A stretch of DNA of 38,936 nucleotides from Candidatus Fimicola merdigallinarum (lineage in GTDB: Bacteria; Bacillota; Clostridia; Lachnospirales; Anaerotignaceae), in NCBI GenBank assembly GCA_017694425.1, contig JADIMX010000052.1:1-38936 (forward strand). Reading direction: 5' to 3'. Positions within the stretch are counted from its first letter, which is position 1, and each line of letters starts with the position of its first letter. The position numbers and the translations under genes are program-made. Positions 1 through 38,824 of the stretch are shown here, one piece after another. A model generated the notes under the pieces. It was not told where the DNA came from and ran no database searches. It was given only the letters and a program-made list of their open reading frames with translations.

Positions 1-94
1 TATGTGCACCTCACCGTAGCTTTTCGCAGCTTATCACGTCCTTCATCGGCTCCTAGTGCCAAGGCATTCACCCTGTGCTCTTTATTGCTTGACC
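1..94 (-). rRNA. 23S ribosomal RNA, 5' end only (partial)
   Basis: Read on the minus strand, the first 94 bases match the start of bacterial 23S rRNA, including the conserved stretches TGCCTTGGCACTAGGAGCC and GATGAAGGACGTGATAAGC. The mature 5' end is placed near base 94 (GGTCAAGC) by comparison with the E. coli 23S start. The gene runs off the left end of the window, as expected when a short-read assembly breaks in a multicopy rRNA gene. Bases 95-283 form an AT-rich leader containing the ACCTTGAAAACTGAATA string common in Firmicute 16S-23S spacers, but no tRNA and no 16S 3' end lie upstream. Confidence 0.96.
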
Positions 95-289
95 TTTTAG
101 TCTATGCTTGAATGTAGTAGCGATACTACAATTGTAAGAATTATCTAATTAAATAAATCTTTACTGCATGTTAAATCTTAATAGAATTTGTTTTCTCGAT
201 TTAATTGACTCTTTTTTACAATATTCAGTTTTCAAGGTACAGTTTGTTATTTTTATCTTTCAGTTGTGCTCTCGCTCAACTGCTTAGAT

Positions 290-318
290 ATATTATCACG
301 TAAAAAAAATATTGTCAA
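290..318 (-). promoter_or_regulatory. Strong rRNA-type promoter upstream of 23S
   Basis: On the minus strand, TTGACA (313-318) is followed by a 17-base spacer and TAATAT (290-295). Long A and T tracts at about 319-360 sit where an UP element would be. The predicted start is near base 283, so the leader to mature 23S would be about 190 nt. It begins with a small hairpin, CAGTTG...CAACTG, at 261-282. The promoter lies between the cvpA terminator and the 23S gene, so 23S appears to be transcribed from here. Confidence 0.7.
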
Positions 319-378
319 CAACTTTTTAAAAAAAATTTTTATTTTTTTCAAAAAATATTTAAAAACCTTGATTTTTCA

Positions 379-410
379 ATAAAAAATACTGTGACGAAAT
401 TCGTCACAGT
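379..410 (-). terminator. Rho-independent terminator of cvpA
   Basis: A perfect 11-bp inverted repeat with a one-base centre (388-410) is followed on the minus strand by ATTTTTTATT. It begins 6 bases after the cvpA stop codon and separates that gene from the rRNA promoter. Confidence 0.9.
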
Positions 411-415
411 ACCCA

Positions 416-1105
416 TTAACCAAAAATTCTAAGTATCATAAATAACAAAATATTGTTTTCATACATAAAATTTGCAATTTTGGAGCTTTCCAAAAGATTG
501 AAAAAAACTTTAAATGATGGATTAAAGTAAAAGAAAGTTAACCCTATGCCAATAACCCATATTATAACAGACCCCTGTAAAACTCCTAACAAAAGACCAA
601 CAAATCTATCTAAAGCACCTACAACCGGTATCTTTTTAACTGTACTTATAATTTTTATAGCTATTTTTACAGCAATAGATGTAACTACAAATATTATAAT
701 AACAGAAAGTATATTTATAAGCATATTGGCAATAAGCCCTGTTATATAATCCTCTATTCCTGTAGCATCAATAATATTATATATTACCGGATTATTATTT
801 TCTAAAAGACTATTTTTTAAAAAATCTGGCAAATTCATATTGTTTATAATTTCAGTTTGAGTATGAAGTGCCGTATCCGATATTAAATTTTTTATATTAA
901 GAAAACTTCCAATACTACTTTTTAAGTTTCCGTACAAGTTTGTACTTCTTATAAATCCACTTAAAACAGGTTGAAACATATAGGTAGATATAAGAGCCAC
1001 AACCGACGGTAGAAAACTTAAAAATGACATTATAAGCCCACTTCTGTATGATTTTATTGCAAAAAATAAAATTATACAAATTACAATAATATCAAGAACA
1101 TTCAT
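416..1105 (-). CDS. cvpA: CvpA family membrane protein
   Basis: A 229-residue integral membrane protein with the CvpA layout: an N-terminal hydrophobic segment followed by Tyr-Arg-Ser-Gly-Leu (residues 20-24), further hydrophobic segments near 30-45 and 130-155, and a Gly-rich one near 165-195. CvpA was named for a role in colicin V production in E. coli; in Firmicutes its role is unclear, with envelope maintenance usually proposed. It starts 20 bases after the DUF5711 gene, probably in one operon. An AAAGAGG ribosome site precedes the ATG. The family call is firm; the function is unknown. Confidence 0.85.
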   Translation of the reverse strand: MNVLDIIVICIILFFAIKSYRSGLIMSFLSFLPSVVALISTYMFQPVLSGFIRSTNLYGNLKSSIGSFLNIKNLISDTALHTQTEIINNMNLPDFLKNSLLENNNPVIYNIIDATGIEDYITGLIANMLINILSVIIIFVVTSIAVKIAIKIISTVKKIPVVGALDRFVGLLLGVLQGSVIIWVIGIGLTFFYFNPSFKVFFNLLESSKIANFMYENNILLFMILRIFG

Positions 1106-1124: not shown

Positions 1125-2582
1125 CTACTGTGCATTTTCAGATGGTGTTTCGGCTTGGCTGTCATCTGTGCTATTTGTATTTTCTACATTTTCACTATTT
1201 TCAGCCTCTCCATTTTCCAAAACCTCATTATTCTGATTTTCAACATTAGTTTCTTCTGTAGTTTCATTATTTTCTGTATCATTTTTATAATCTTTTAAAG
1301 AAACAGGCACATAGTTTTTAATATCTACATACTGTACATAGTTTCTAGTAACATAAAGCACATTATTCTTATCCATAGGTATTATATCCTTAATATCCTG
1401 AGTTGCCCTATGTTCCCAAACTAAGCCACCATTTTTCTTCACAAGTTTAAACTTTTTACCATTTCCAACAACTGTGCCTTGACTGTATGATTTAAGATAA
1501 GTTATCTGTCCACCACTTTCAAAAGTTCCGGCTTCCTTACCATTTGTATTAAGAAATACCACAGTCCCGTTTCTATATCCGTCTTTACCGTCCATAGAAT
1601 CGCCACAACCTAAGGCTATATAACTTCCAGCCGAAAGACTTATGTACTCAAGTTTATTATTAAGTTTATATGACCAAACCTCTTTAGCTGTACTATCCAT
1701 AGCAAAGACACTAGAATCTGTAATCGCTACAATATTATTGCCGTCAACATATGACAAATAGCCTATATACTCACCTTCTTTAGATATAGCACCAAACATT
1801 CCGTCTATATAATCGCCACCATTTTCACTTACATAAAAGAATACTACCTTTGAAACAGCCTCTATATCCGTTGTATCCACATATCCAACAGCAAAAACAT
1901 TGTTATCCTCTGATATATCAAGGCACATAGGGAATACATTTTTAGTAGCCTCAACTCTTTCAGCTACAACCTCACCTTCAGAATTTATTATCTTTATGAT
2001 ATAACTGCTTGAGCCATTCATAAGAACACCCATAAATCCATTTTTGTTTATGGAAACTTTAGCAATAGGATAGTCCATAGAAAGGTCGTAAACTTTTCCA
2101 TTAGAATTATACATTTTAACTGTTCTACCCATAATATCAGCAACAGCTACATAATCCCCCTCGACAATAACGCTAGGAGATGCCATTGTAAATGTATCGT
2201 TCCATTTTTCCTTACCCATTTCAGTATAAAACTTTATACCGTCTTTTGTGCAATGTAAAAATCCACCACCGAAACTATTAAAAATACTTTTAGTATCACT
2301 ACCAAAAGTCATATAATCACTTTCTTTGGCAGTTTTTCCACCCTCATCAACTATATCATTCTCAACATTTTCTTCACTATATTTTTGCTTTTCAATTATA
2401 TTCTTCACTATCTGATTACCGTAATACGTATCATACATAACAATAGATACAACGAAAGCAATTAAAAGAAAAAGAAGCATAAAAGACGGTTTTTTATAGA
2501 AAGGCTTTTTACTTCTAGACGGGGTATTGCTGTTAGGTTCTTTGTATACCTCATCTTCAAACTCCAAATCGTCGTTTTTCAC
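1125..2582 (-). CDS. DUF5711 family membrane-anchored beta-propeller-like protein
   Basis: A 485-residue protein: a short charged cytoplasmic N-terminus, one membrane anchor at residues 34-50, then a large extracytoplasmic region with repeating beta-strand blocks and Trp motifs (VWSYKL, LVWEH) as in PQQ-like propellers, and an acidic Asn/Glu-rich low-complexity tail from about 430. This matches the DUF5711 proteins that sit beside cvpA in Clostridia. The start is GTG (2580-2582), set by a GGAGG site 7 bases upstream at 2590-2594. The molecular role is unknown; the propeller assignment is an inference from sequence rhythm. Confidence 0.75.
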   Translation of the reverse strand: MKNDDLEFEDEVYKEPNSNTPSRSKKPFYKKPSFMLLFLLIAFVVSIVMYDTYYGNQIVKNIIEKQKYSEENVENDIVDEGGKTAKESDYMTFGSDTKSIFNSFGGGFLHCTKDGIKFYTEMGKEKWNDTFTMASPSVIVEGDYVAVADIMGRTVKMYNSNGKVYDLSMDYPIAKVSINKNGFMGVLMNGSSSYIIKIINSEGEVVAERVEATKNVFPMCLDISEDNNVFAVGYVDTTDIEAVSKVVFFYVSENGGDYIDGMFGAISKEGEYIGYLSYVDGNNIVAITDSSVFAMDSTAKEVWSYKLNNKLEYISLSAGSYIALGCGDSMDGKDGYRNGTVVFLNTNGKEAGTFESGGQITYLKSYSQGTVVGNGKKFKLVKKNGGLVWEHRATQDIKDIIPMDKNNVLYVTRNYVQYVDIKNYVPVSLKDYKNDTENNETTEETNVENQNNEVLENGEAENSENVENTNSTDDSQAETPSENAQ

Positions 2583-3741: not shown

Positions 3742-5184
3742 TTATTGATTTTTAATACTTTCATAAAGCTCAACGTATTTTTTAGCTGAGTTCTCCCAAG
3801 AGTAATTACAATTCATAGCATTTTTAACTACTGTATTCCATTCATCACTACCCATACGGTAAACCTTTAAGGCCTCTCTTATTGCCCAAAGTAGTCCATT
3901 ACCGTCATAAGTTTCAAAAACAAAACCGTTACCCTCTTTTGTTTCTGTATTGTAGTGGAAAACTGTATCGGCAAGTCCACCAGTTTTTCTGACAATAGGA
4001 ACAGTTCCGTATCTTAAGCTAAACATCTGACCTAAGCCACAAGGCTCAAATAAAGATGGCATAAGGAACATATCACTTGAGGCATATATTCTCTGAGCAA
4101 GGTTTCCGTCAAACATTATGTTTGCACTGACTTTCCCTTTGTACTTATGTTCAAAAAATCTAAACATATGCTCATATCTTGCCTCACCAGTACCTAAAAC
4201 TACAAACTGTACATCTTCATTCATAAGCTCGTCAAAAATCTGTGCCACAAGGTCAAGACCTTTTTGGTCTGCAAGTCTTGATATTATGCTTATAATAGGA
4301 ACATCTCTTTCTTCTAATCCAAGTTCTTTTTGAAGTTCCCTCTTGTTTTCTTTCTTTATATCAAGGGAATTTACATCAAAGTTTTTAAAAAGTCTACTGT
4401 CTGTAGCCGGATTATTTTCATTAAAATCGATACCATTTATTATTCCACAAAGGTTATCTCTCTTAAATCTTAAAACACCGTCCATACCGTAACCATACTG
4501 TTCAGTCTGTATCTCATCAGCATAAGTATTACTTACAGTGCTTATCTTATCGGCATACATAAGACCAGCTTTCATATAGCTGACATTTCCGTAAAACTCA
4601 ATATTTCCATTTGTAAAACAGTAGTCCGGAACGTCTAAAAGGTCCATTGTTTCCCTACCGAAGTTACCCTGATACTGAAGATTGTGTATAGTATAAAGTG
4701 TTTTTATATTTGAATAATATATAAATTTTCTGTAAGTTTCTTTTAAAAATAAACAAAGTGGACCTGTCTGCCAGTCGTTACAATGTATAATATCAGGATA
4801 GAAATCTATAAAAGAAAGCATATCTAAAGTGGCTTTACTAAAGAAAGCAAAACGCTCATTATCATCACCATAGCCATAAAGACCGTCACGATAAAAATAA
4901 TAGTCATTCTCTATAAAATAAACAGGAAATTCTGTTTCTTTAAGAAGAACACCTACTTTTTGATTACGCCAAGAAAGATTAGTATTGAAACTACCAAGAT
5001 ATTTTACATCATTAAAATACTCTGTCTTAATAGTTTTATATTTTGGGAGTACCACCCTAACATCAACGCCAAGCTTTTTAAGTGCCTTTGGAAGTGAGCC
5101 TGCTACATCTCCAAGACCTCCGCTTTTTGCATATGGTGCAACTTCAGATGACACAATAAGTACTTTTAATTTTTTGTCTTCCAA
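3742..5184 (-). CDS. glgA: Glycogen synthase (ADP-glucose type, GT5)
   Basis: Transfers glucose from ADP-glucose to a growing alpha-1,4-glucan. The KSGGLGDV motif that binds ADP-glucose lies near residue 20, and the C-terminal half carries the GT-B donor site with FEPCGLGQ. The length, about 480 residues, is normal. There is no ATG: TTG codons at 5190 and 5184 are both in frame. The ribosome site AAGGGGTG (5192-5199) is only one base from the first but seven from the second, so 5184 (480 residues) is preferred. The gene appears monocistronic; the matching phosphorylase is near 28-30.5 kb and no glgC or glgB is in the window. Confidence 0.93.
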   Translation of the reverse strand: MEDKKLKVLIVSSEVAPYAKSGGLGDVAGSLPKALKKLGVDVRVVLPKYKTIKTEYFNDVKYLGSFNTNLSWRNQKVGVLLKETEFPVYFIENDYYFYRDGLYGYGDDNERFAFFSKATLDMLSFIDFYPDIIHCNDWQTGPLCLFLKETYRKFIYYSNIKTLYTIHNLQYQGNFGRETMDLLDVPDYCFTNGNIEFYGNVSYMKAGLMYADKISTVSNTYADEIQTEQYGYGMDGVLRFKRDNLCGIINGIDFNENNPATDSRLFKNFDVNSLDIKKENKRELQKELGLEERDVPIISIISRLADQKGLDLVAQIFDELMNEDVQFVVLGTGEARYEHMFRFFEHKYKGKVSANIMFDGNLAQRIYASSDMFLMPSLFEPCGLGQMFSLRYGTVPIVRKTGGLADTVFHYNTETKEGNGFVFETYDGNGLLWAIREALKVYRMGSDEWNTVVKNAMNCNYSWENSAKKYVELYESIKNQ

Positions 5185-5246
5185 TTCCAAACACCCCTTA
5201 TCATTTTAAAAAAATCCTTCCCTATAAATAAAAATACCCTATAATT

Positions 5247-7215: not shown

Positions 7216-7248
7216 TTTTAAATAACTGAATAAATAATTTTGCTTTTT

Positions 7249-7352
7249 TCTTATTAAGAGAGGTGGAGGGAAATGGCCCAGCGAAGCCTCGGCAACTTTC
7301 ATTAAATGAAAAAGTGCCAAATCCATCAGGCTACTTTGTCTGAAAAATAAGA
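7249..7352 (+). ncRNA. SAM-I (S-box) riboswitch aptamer
   Basis: The region carries the conserved S-box core: AAGAGAGGTGGAGGGA, then GGCCC, GAAGCCTCGGCAAC and AAGTGCCAAATCC, closed by a P1 helix between 7249-7255 and 7346-7352. S-boxes bind S-adenosylmethionine. Bound SAM stabilises P1 and lets the terminator at 7377-7411 form, switching off the gene downstream. The promoter ahead and the terminator behind make this a transcriptional OFF switch for the NhaC/MetT-type gene. Confidence 0.95.
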
Positions 7353-7376
7353 TATTGCTGTATGTTTGTACACTAT

Positions 7377-38654: not shown

Positions 38655-38693
38655 TCTTTACACCTCCTTGTAAATATAAATGAAATTTGCCGT

Positions 38694-38726
38694 AAAAAAA
38701 CCTCTTATGTCCATAGACAAAGAGGT
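38694..38726 (-). terminator. Attenuator hairpin in the rplJ leader
   Basis: The stem ACCTCTT / AAGAGGT with an inner TGTC/GACA stem (38700-38726) is followed by T7 (38694-38700). It lies between the L10 leader and the rplJ ribosome site. Confidence 0.85.
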
Positions 38727-38824
38727 ATAATCTCTAATTTATAAAGAACTTCCTCGGCAGGCAATTAAAAATTTTACCCATAAAACTGGACCTGCTGTCT
38801 ACGGCTGTATTCATTTCAAACAAC
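38727..38824 (-). ncRNA. L10 ribosomal protein leader
   Basis: On the minus strand, AGACAGCAGG and then TTGCCTGCCGAGG match the conserved halves of the Firmicute L10 leader, which binds the L10-L12 complex and closes by CAGG/CCTG pairing. Followed by an attenuator hairpin, it is the expected feedback control of rplJL. Confidence 0.85.

Follow-up and report, generated by a model that had tools for sequence, protein, structure and literature searches.

A contig end in Candidatus Fimicola merdigallinarum very probably marks the start of a stand-alone 23S rRNA unit inherited from an ancestral operon split

The stretch of DNA analysed here, called the window, comprises 38,936 bases, and its first positions hold the beginning of a 23S rRNA gene that runs into the contig end. 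Read on the minus strand, this gene is preceded by a leader, a promoter and a block of protein-coding genes:

1-94, minus strand: first 94 nt of a 23S rRNA gene, truncated by the contig end (Rfam RF02541, 64 bits, E 6e-17, model positions 1-94)
114-129, minus strand: hairpin GTAGTATCGCTACTAC, shortly 5′ of the 23S, read directly from the sequences and found ahead of the 23S in most relatives
217-243, minus strand: boxA-like element and 5′ arm of the 23S-flanking stem, ACTGTACCTTGAAAACTGAATATTGTA, which pairs with the 3′ flank of the 23S in the same-genus genome G001; the arms covary between species
261-282, minus strand: leader hairpin CAGTTG...CAACTG, immediately 3′ of the promoter
290-318, minus strand: promoter TTGACA-17-TAATAT with a TG upstream of the -10, from a promoter scan
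319-383, minus strand: A/T tracts resembling an UP element, upstream of the promoter
384-414, minus strand: intrinsic terminator of cvpA, a 14-pair stem followed by a T tract
416-1105, minus strand: cvpA (Colicin V production protein family; PF02674, E 1.3e-19), upstream neighbour of the solitary 23S
1125-2582, minus strand: gene for a DUF5711 protein (PF18975), a conserved neighbour found beside the solitary 23S unit in 17 relatives
3742-5190, minus strand: glgA (starch/glycogen synthase; PF08323), a conserved neighbour whose order is kept in G001, G024, G029, G031, G023 and others

The promoter ends 195 bases ahead of the 23S start. The initial annotation had described a TTGACA-17-TAATAT promoter about 195 bases before the mature 23S end, with A/T tracts like those of an UP element and, directly upstream, a protein gene with its own terminator. 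The promoter scan (318-290), the CvpA open reading frame (1105-416) and the terminator (414-384) place all of these parts correctly, and tracts similar to those seen here occur in relatives. Its statement that no 16S gene lies upstream also holds, as the Rfam scan found none in the 38,936 bases of the window. The visible fragment is identical to the 23S of G001 at 92 of 94 positions. Two ordinary regulatory RNAs are also present in the window, a SAM riboswitch (7248-7353, plus strand) and a ribosomal protein L10 leader (38686-38822, minus strand).

The source draft (1.80 Mb, 168 contigs) yielded no 16S, no second 23S at the cut-offs used and no contig with tRNA-Tyr; because it holds no further rRNA, the question was settled on relatives. 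This fragmentation, together with a contig that terminates inside a repeated gene, speaks for an assembly artefact, either the jump between a 16S leader and a 16S-23S spacer through shared sequence that the initial annotation raised as a possibility, or one from such a leader into the repeated 23S. The same junction, with its parts in the same order, was nevertheless observed in independent assemblies of many species, single-contig genomes among them. The promoter with CCTTGAAAACTGAATA 25-270 nt downstream occurs in 31 of the 58 genomes of the family, which represent at least 11 of its 17 genera, and a unit made of promoter, short leader and 23S, without a 16S, is present in each of the four single-contig genomes. 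Upstream of it lies a block of genes that is itself conserved. CvpA is directly upstream in 18 of the 24 loci with a readable upstream open reading frame on the same strand and is nearby, though not the nearest frame called, in three more (G005, G014 and G023); glgA and the DUF5711 gene usually stand behind it, an order kept in many loci. The address beside cvpA is not universal, since other genes precede the 23S unit in G002, G003 and G007, and in G002, which belongs to the same genus as the source organism, the promoter and 23S leader follow a sugar-permease gene on a contig that stops about 40 nt before the 23S. Species with different upstream genes thus show the junction between promoter and 23S as well. 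Further, the 16S leaders of the family carry an arm of their own, with about 14 nt in common with the 23S leader, and because the arms differ, the shared sequence is too short for a k-mer jump. An assembly jump is extremely unlikely in the light of these data, and the odd contig end is real biology rather than an assembly error.

In G001, both arrangements are found on one contig. The right end of C67 reads glgA, a permease-like gene, the DUF5711 gene, cvpA, terminator, promoter, tRNA-Ala(UGC), leader and 23S, of which 79 nt are visible before the contig ends (L024). The left end carries a linked operon (L023) with 16S, 5S, tRNA-Ile, tRNA-Ala, 23S, 5S and seven tRNAs. Several leader/spacer positions differ between L024 and L023, which shows that two distinct loci are involved rather than a duplicate assembly of one. 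Several linked operons (L023, 147-264; L057, L062, L063, L065, L066 and L068) contain an additional 5S, located between 16S and 23S ahead of tRNA-Ile and tRNA-Ala.

At the level of the order, the exact pattern of promoter, 25-55 nt and 23S-leader element was matched in 39 of 392 genomes, and the same pattern read backwards was matched in none of the 392. A promoter arising by chance is ruled out by this control together with the conservation described below. In genomes from other families, the leader element mostly stands ahead of a 16S, or the contigs stop short of either gene, so these hits are not evidence of split operons, with the exception of G101. The position of the element before 16S genes would be expected of a general arm and antitermination signal. 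The exception, a genome of a sister family (f17), contains a promoter-16S unit plus a promoter-23S-5S unit, the latter at a different place and not beside cvpA. Because this genome lies outside the family and carries its unit elsewhere, the splitting may predate the family or may have occurred repeatedly. As separate observations, a promoter with an rRNA-type leader element, CTTTGAAAACTGAATA, was seen before a gene resembling rny (RNase Y) in G028 (L143, 1125) and G014 (L147, 1058), two further species of the family contain a sequence matching this arrangement (G022:C19:1769 and G027:C91:75422), and, in a different family within the order, short genes of phage-like appearance follow the same promoter and leader element (L140, 549, in G294; L141, 569, in G099).

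Alignment of 18 loci, from as many species, revealed a drifting spacer but conserved TTGACA, TG and TA..AT (-10) positions. No strong promoter comparable to that of the solitary 23S was found in the 16S-23S spacers of linked operons. Immediately downstream of the promoter, a hairpin folds in nearly all of 32 loci despite differing stem sequences. That the 23S is transcribed mostly by read-through from the cvpA operon, with the promoter in a secondary role, could be argued from cvpA being co-directional and close (97 bases). The 14-pair terminator stands between them, however, rRNA requires a very high output, and the promoter persists where the upstream gene changes (G002, G003, G007), all of which makes read-through a very improbable main source of the 23S.

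Downstream in the leader, CCTTGAAAACTGAATA... pairs with TATTCAGTTTTGAGG..., which is located 3′ of the 23S. Complementary 5′ and 3′ flanks of the 23S are present in G001, G024, G031, G023, G029 and G101, and the outer stem changes on both sides (ATTG/CAAT in G001, CAAGA/TCTTG in G024, GAGAG/CTCTC in G101). The calculated energies of the flanking stem range from -33.6 to -41.0 kcal/mol, against a mean of -6.8 and a minimum of -16.0 for shuffled sequences; the 5′ arm of the window, whose own 3′ flank lies off the contig, gives -33.6 kcal/mol when combined with the 3′ arm of G001. RNase III and Mini-III take part in rRNA maturation in Firmicutes, from which it is inferred that the stem is the cleavage site, and the precursor 23S would be excised at this flanking helix by enzymes of the RNase III type. 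Because elements for initiation, leader and processing stem are all present, the solitary 23S unit has what it needs and, judged from its sequence, looks self-sufficient and functional.

A second strong promoter, of the TTGACA-17-TATAAT type, was noted between the 23S and the 5S/tRNA genes in G001, G031 and G023 and was not found there in G024 or G029. It lies at 3550-3580 in L023 and just after the 23S in L059, L060, L065 and L075, and occurs both in linked operons and in the solitary operon of G031.

The single-contig genomes also show where the missing 16S resides. They contain 16S and 23S genes in equal numbers (4/4 in G023, 7/7 in G024, 6/6 in G029 and 5/5 in G031), the 16S count resting on a search that scored five candidates in each genome and, for the rest, on the scanning of loci. 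Each has one 23S without an upstream 16S (L064, L061, L067 and L059) and exactly one 16S without a downstream 23S, the remaining operons being linked. In all four, the solitary 16S lies in the order sirtuin-like deacetylase gene (so named on its sequence rather than on a domain search), promoter, leader, 16S, tRNA-Tyr(GTA) and terminator. Many drafts, G001 and G002 among them, again show the 3′ end of the 16S joined to tRNA-Tyr, in most cases at a contig end. The reading in the initial annotation of a 23S with its own rRNA-type promoter and no 16S is thereby borne out, with the same order of cvpA, promoter and 23S and the 16S elsewhere. It is also refined: the genomes of the relatives are mixed, with most operons linked and one split. 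Linked copies accompany the split one in G001 (L023), G023, G024, G029 and G031, and no rRNA other than that of the window appears in the source draft.

The solitary genes are intact and nearly identical to their linked counterparts, at 99.4-100% for the 23S in four genomes (two compared at full length and two over at least 2519 nt) and 99.3-100% for the 16S. The view that the split copy is a dead remnant, with a decaying 23S or a promoter present by chance, can draw on the fact that rRNA fragments may survive rearrangement and that only 94 nt of the window copy are visible. The identity of the solitary 23S to linked copies and a promoter kept in 18 species and absent from linked spacers contradict it, and it is very unlikely.

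Very probably, the contig end holds the beginning of a stand-alone 23S(-5S) transcription unit that derives from a split ancestral to the family, both halves of the split having been kept by descent. The finding of one 16S without 23S and one 23S without 16S in each single-contig genome, all others being linked, argues that one operon was split long ago and its halves inherited. The split would have taken place in the ancestor of the family (Lachnospirales, Clostridia), after which the 23S half would have settled with its own promoter behind glgA-DUF5711-cvpA, and the 16S half, also with its own promoter, behind the sirtuin gene and ahead of tRNA-Tyr and a terminator. In the 23S half, a strong promoter of the sigma-A type, with an extended -10 and A/T-rich upstream DNA, would start a leader RNA that contains a small hairpin as well as the 5′ arm of the stem around the 23S, followed by the 23S; this promoter is predicted to fire. 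Both halves would have been inherited at largely fixed loci beside ordinary linked operons and in equal numbers, so that the 16S:23S gene dosage stays 1:1. Linked operons and the 16S-tRNA-Tyr half are missing from the draft of the source organism but probably exist in that organism as well. That the split is maintained as a regulatory arrangement, in which 16S-tRNA-Tyr and 23S are tuned separately, for example to growth or starvation signals, at a dosage of 1:1, is a rather unlikely addition to this descent from a split operon.

In this group of Clostridia, a single split operon persists alongside several linked ones, and its 23S unit extends over at least 11 genera. Having its own promoter, leader and neighbours, the split offers a clear-cut setting in which to ask whether co-transcription of 16S and 23S is required. 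On the practical side, 16S-ITS-23S amplicons overlook one copy per genome, and contig ends with a promoter-23S junction in such bins are real, which makes trimming them as chimeras unnecessary.

Most associations of unlinked rRNA genes reported so far are with symbionts and reduced genomes (PMC7761764). By the definition of Brewer et al. (2020), as given in PMC7761764 and PMC8178347, mixed genomes are those in which some 16S and 23S genes lie more than 1500 bp apart, and 270 such genomes were counted among 15,521 complete ones (PMC7761764). The 23S of the window exceeds this distance, with no 16S in the 38.8 kb upstream of it, and the same holds for the solitary 23S genes of the single-contig genomes. 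The initial annotation considered unlinked genes to be outside the norm in Clostridia; this stands in a refined form, as PMC8178347 already reports Cellulosilyticum lentocellum DSM 5427 as mixed and Cellulosilyticum sp. WCF-2 as having unlinked rRNA genes. The announcement of the 3.1 Mb genome of Clostridium (Anaerotignum) propionicum DSM 1682 gives '7 rRNA operons' and mentions no split (PMC4832176), and the portion available for Anaeropeptidivorans aminofermentans M3/9T, assembled from PacBio and Illumina data, gives five operons, again with no mention of a split (PMC9682168). No report of Anaerotignum with unlinked rRNA was found in the literature covered, most subscription papers and the tables of Brewer et al. 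being outside its scope. In conclusion, the mixture of linked and unlinked rRNA genes is already known, and the present case is a new and unusually conserved one, in a lineage for which no report was found. It resembles Cellulosilyticum in being a case of mixed or unlinked rRNA genes in Clostridia of the Lachnospiraceae group, and differs in that promoter, neighbours and conservation, as given here for the unit of the family, are not described in the available text of PMC8178347. Likewise, it agrees with the mixed genomes of Brewer et al. (2020), as presented in PMC7761764, in having some 16S and 23S genes linked and others more than 1500 bp apart, and it departs from mixed genomes in general in having a single split pair per single-contig genome, with each half at an address conserved across genera.
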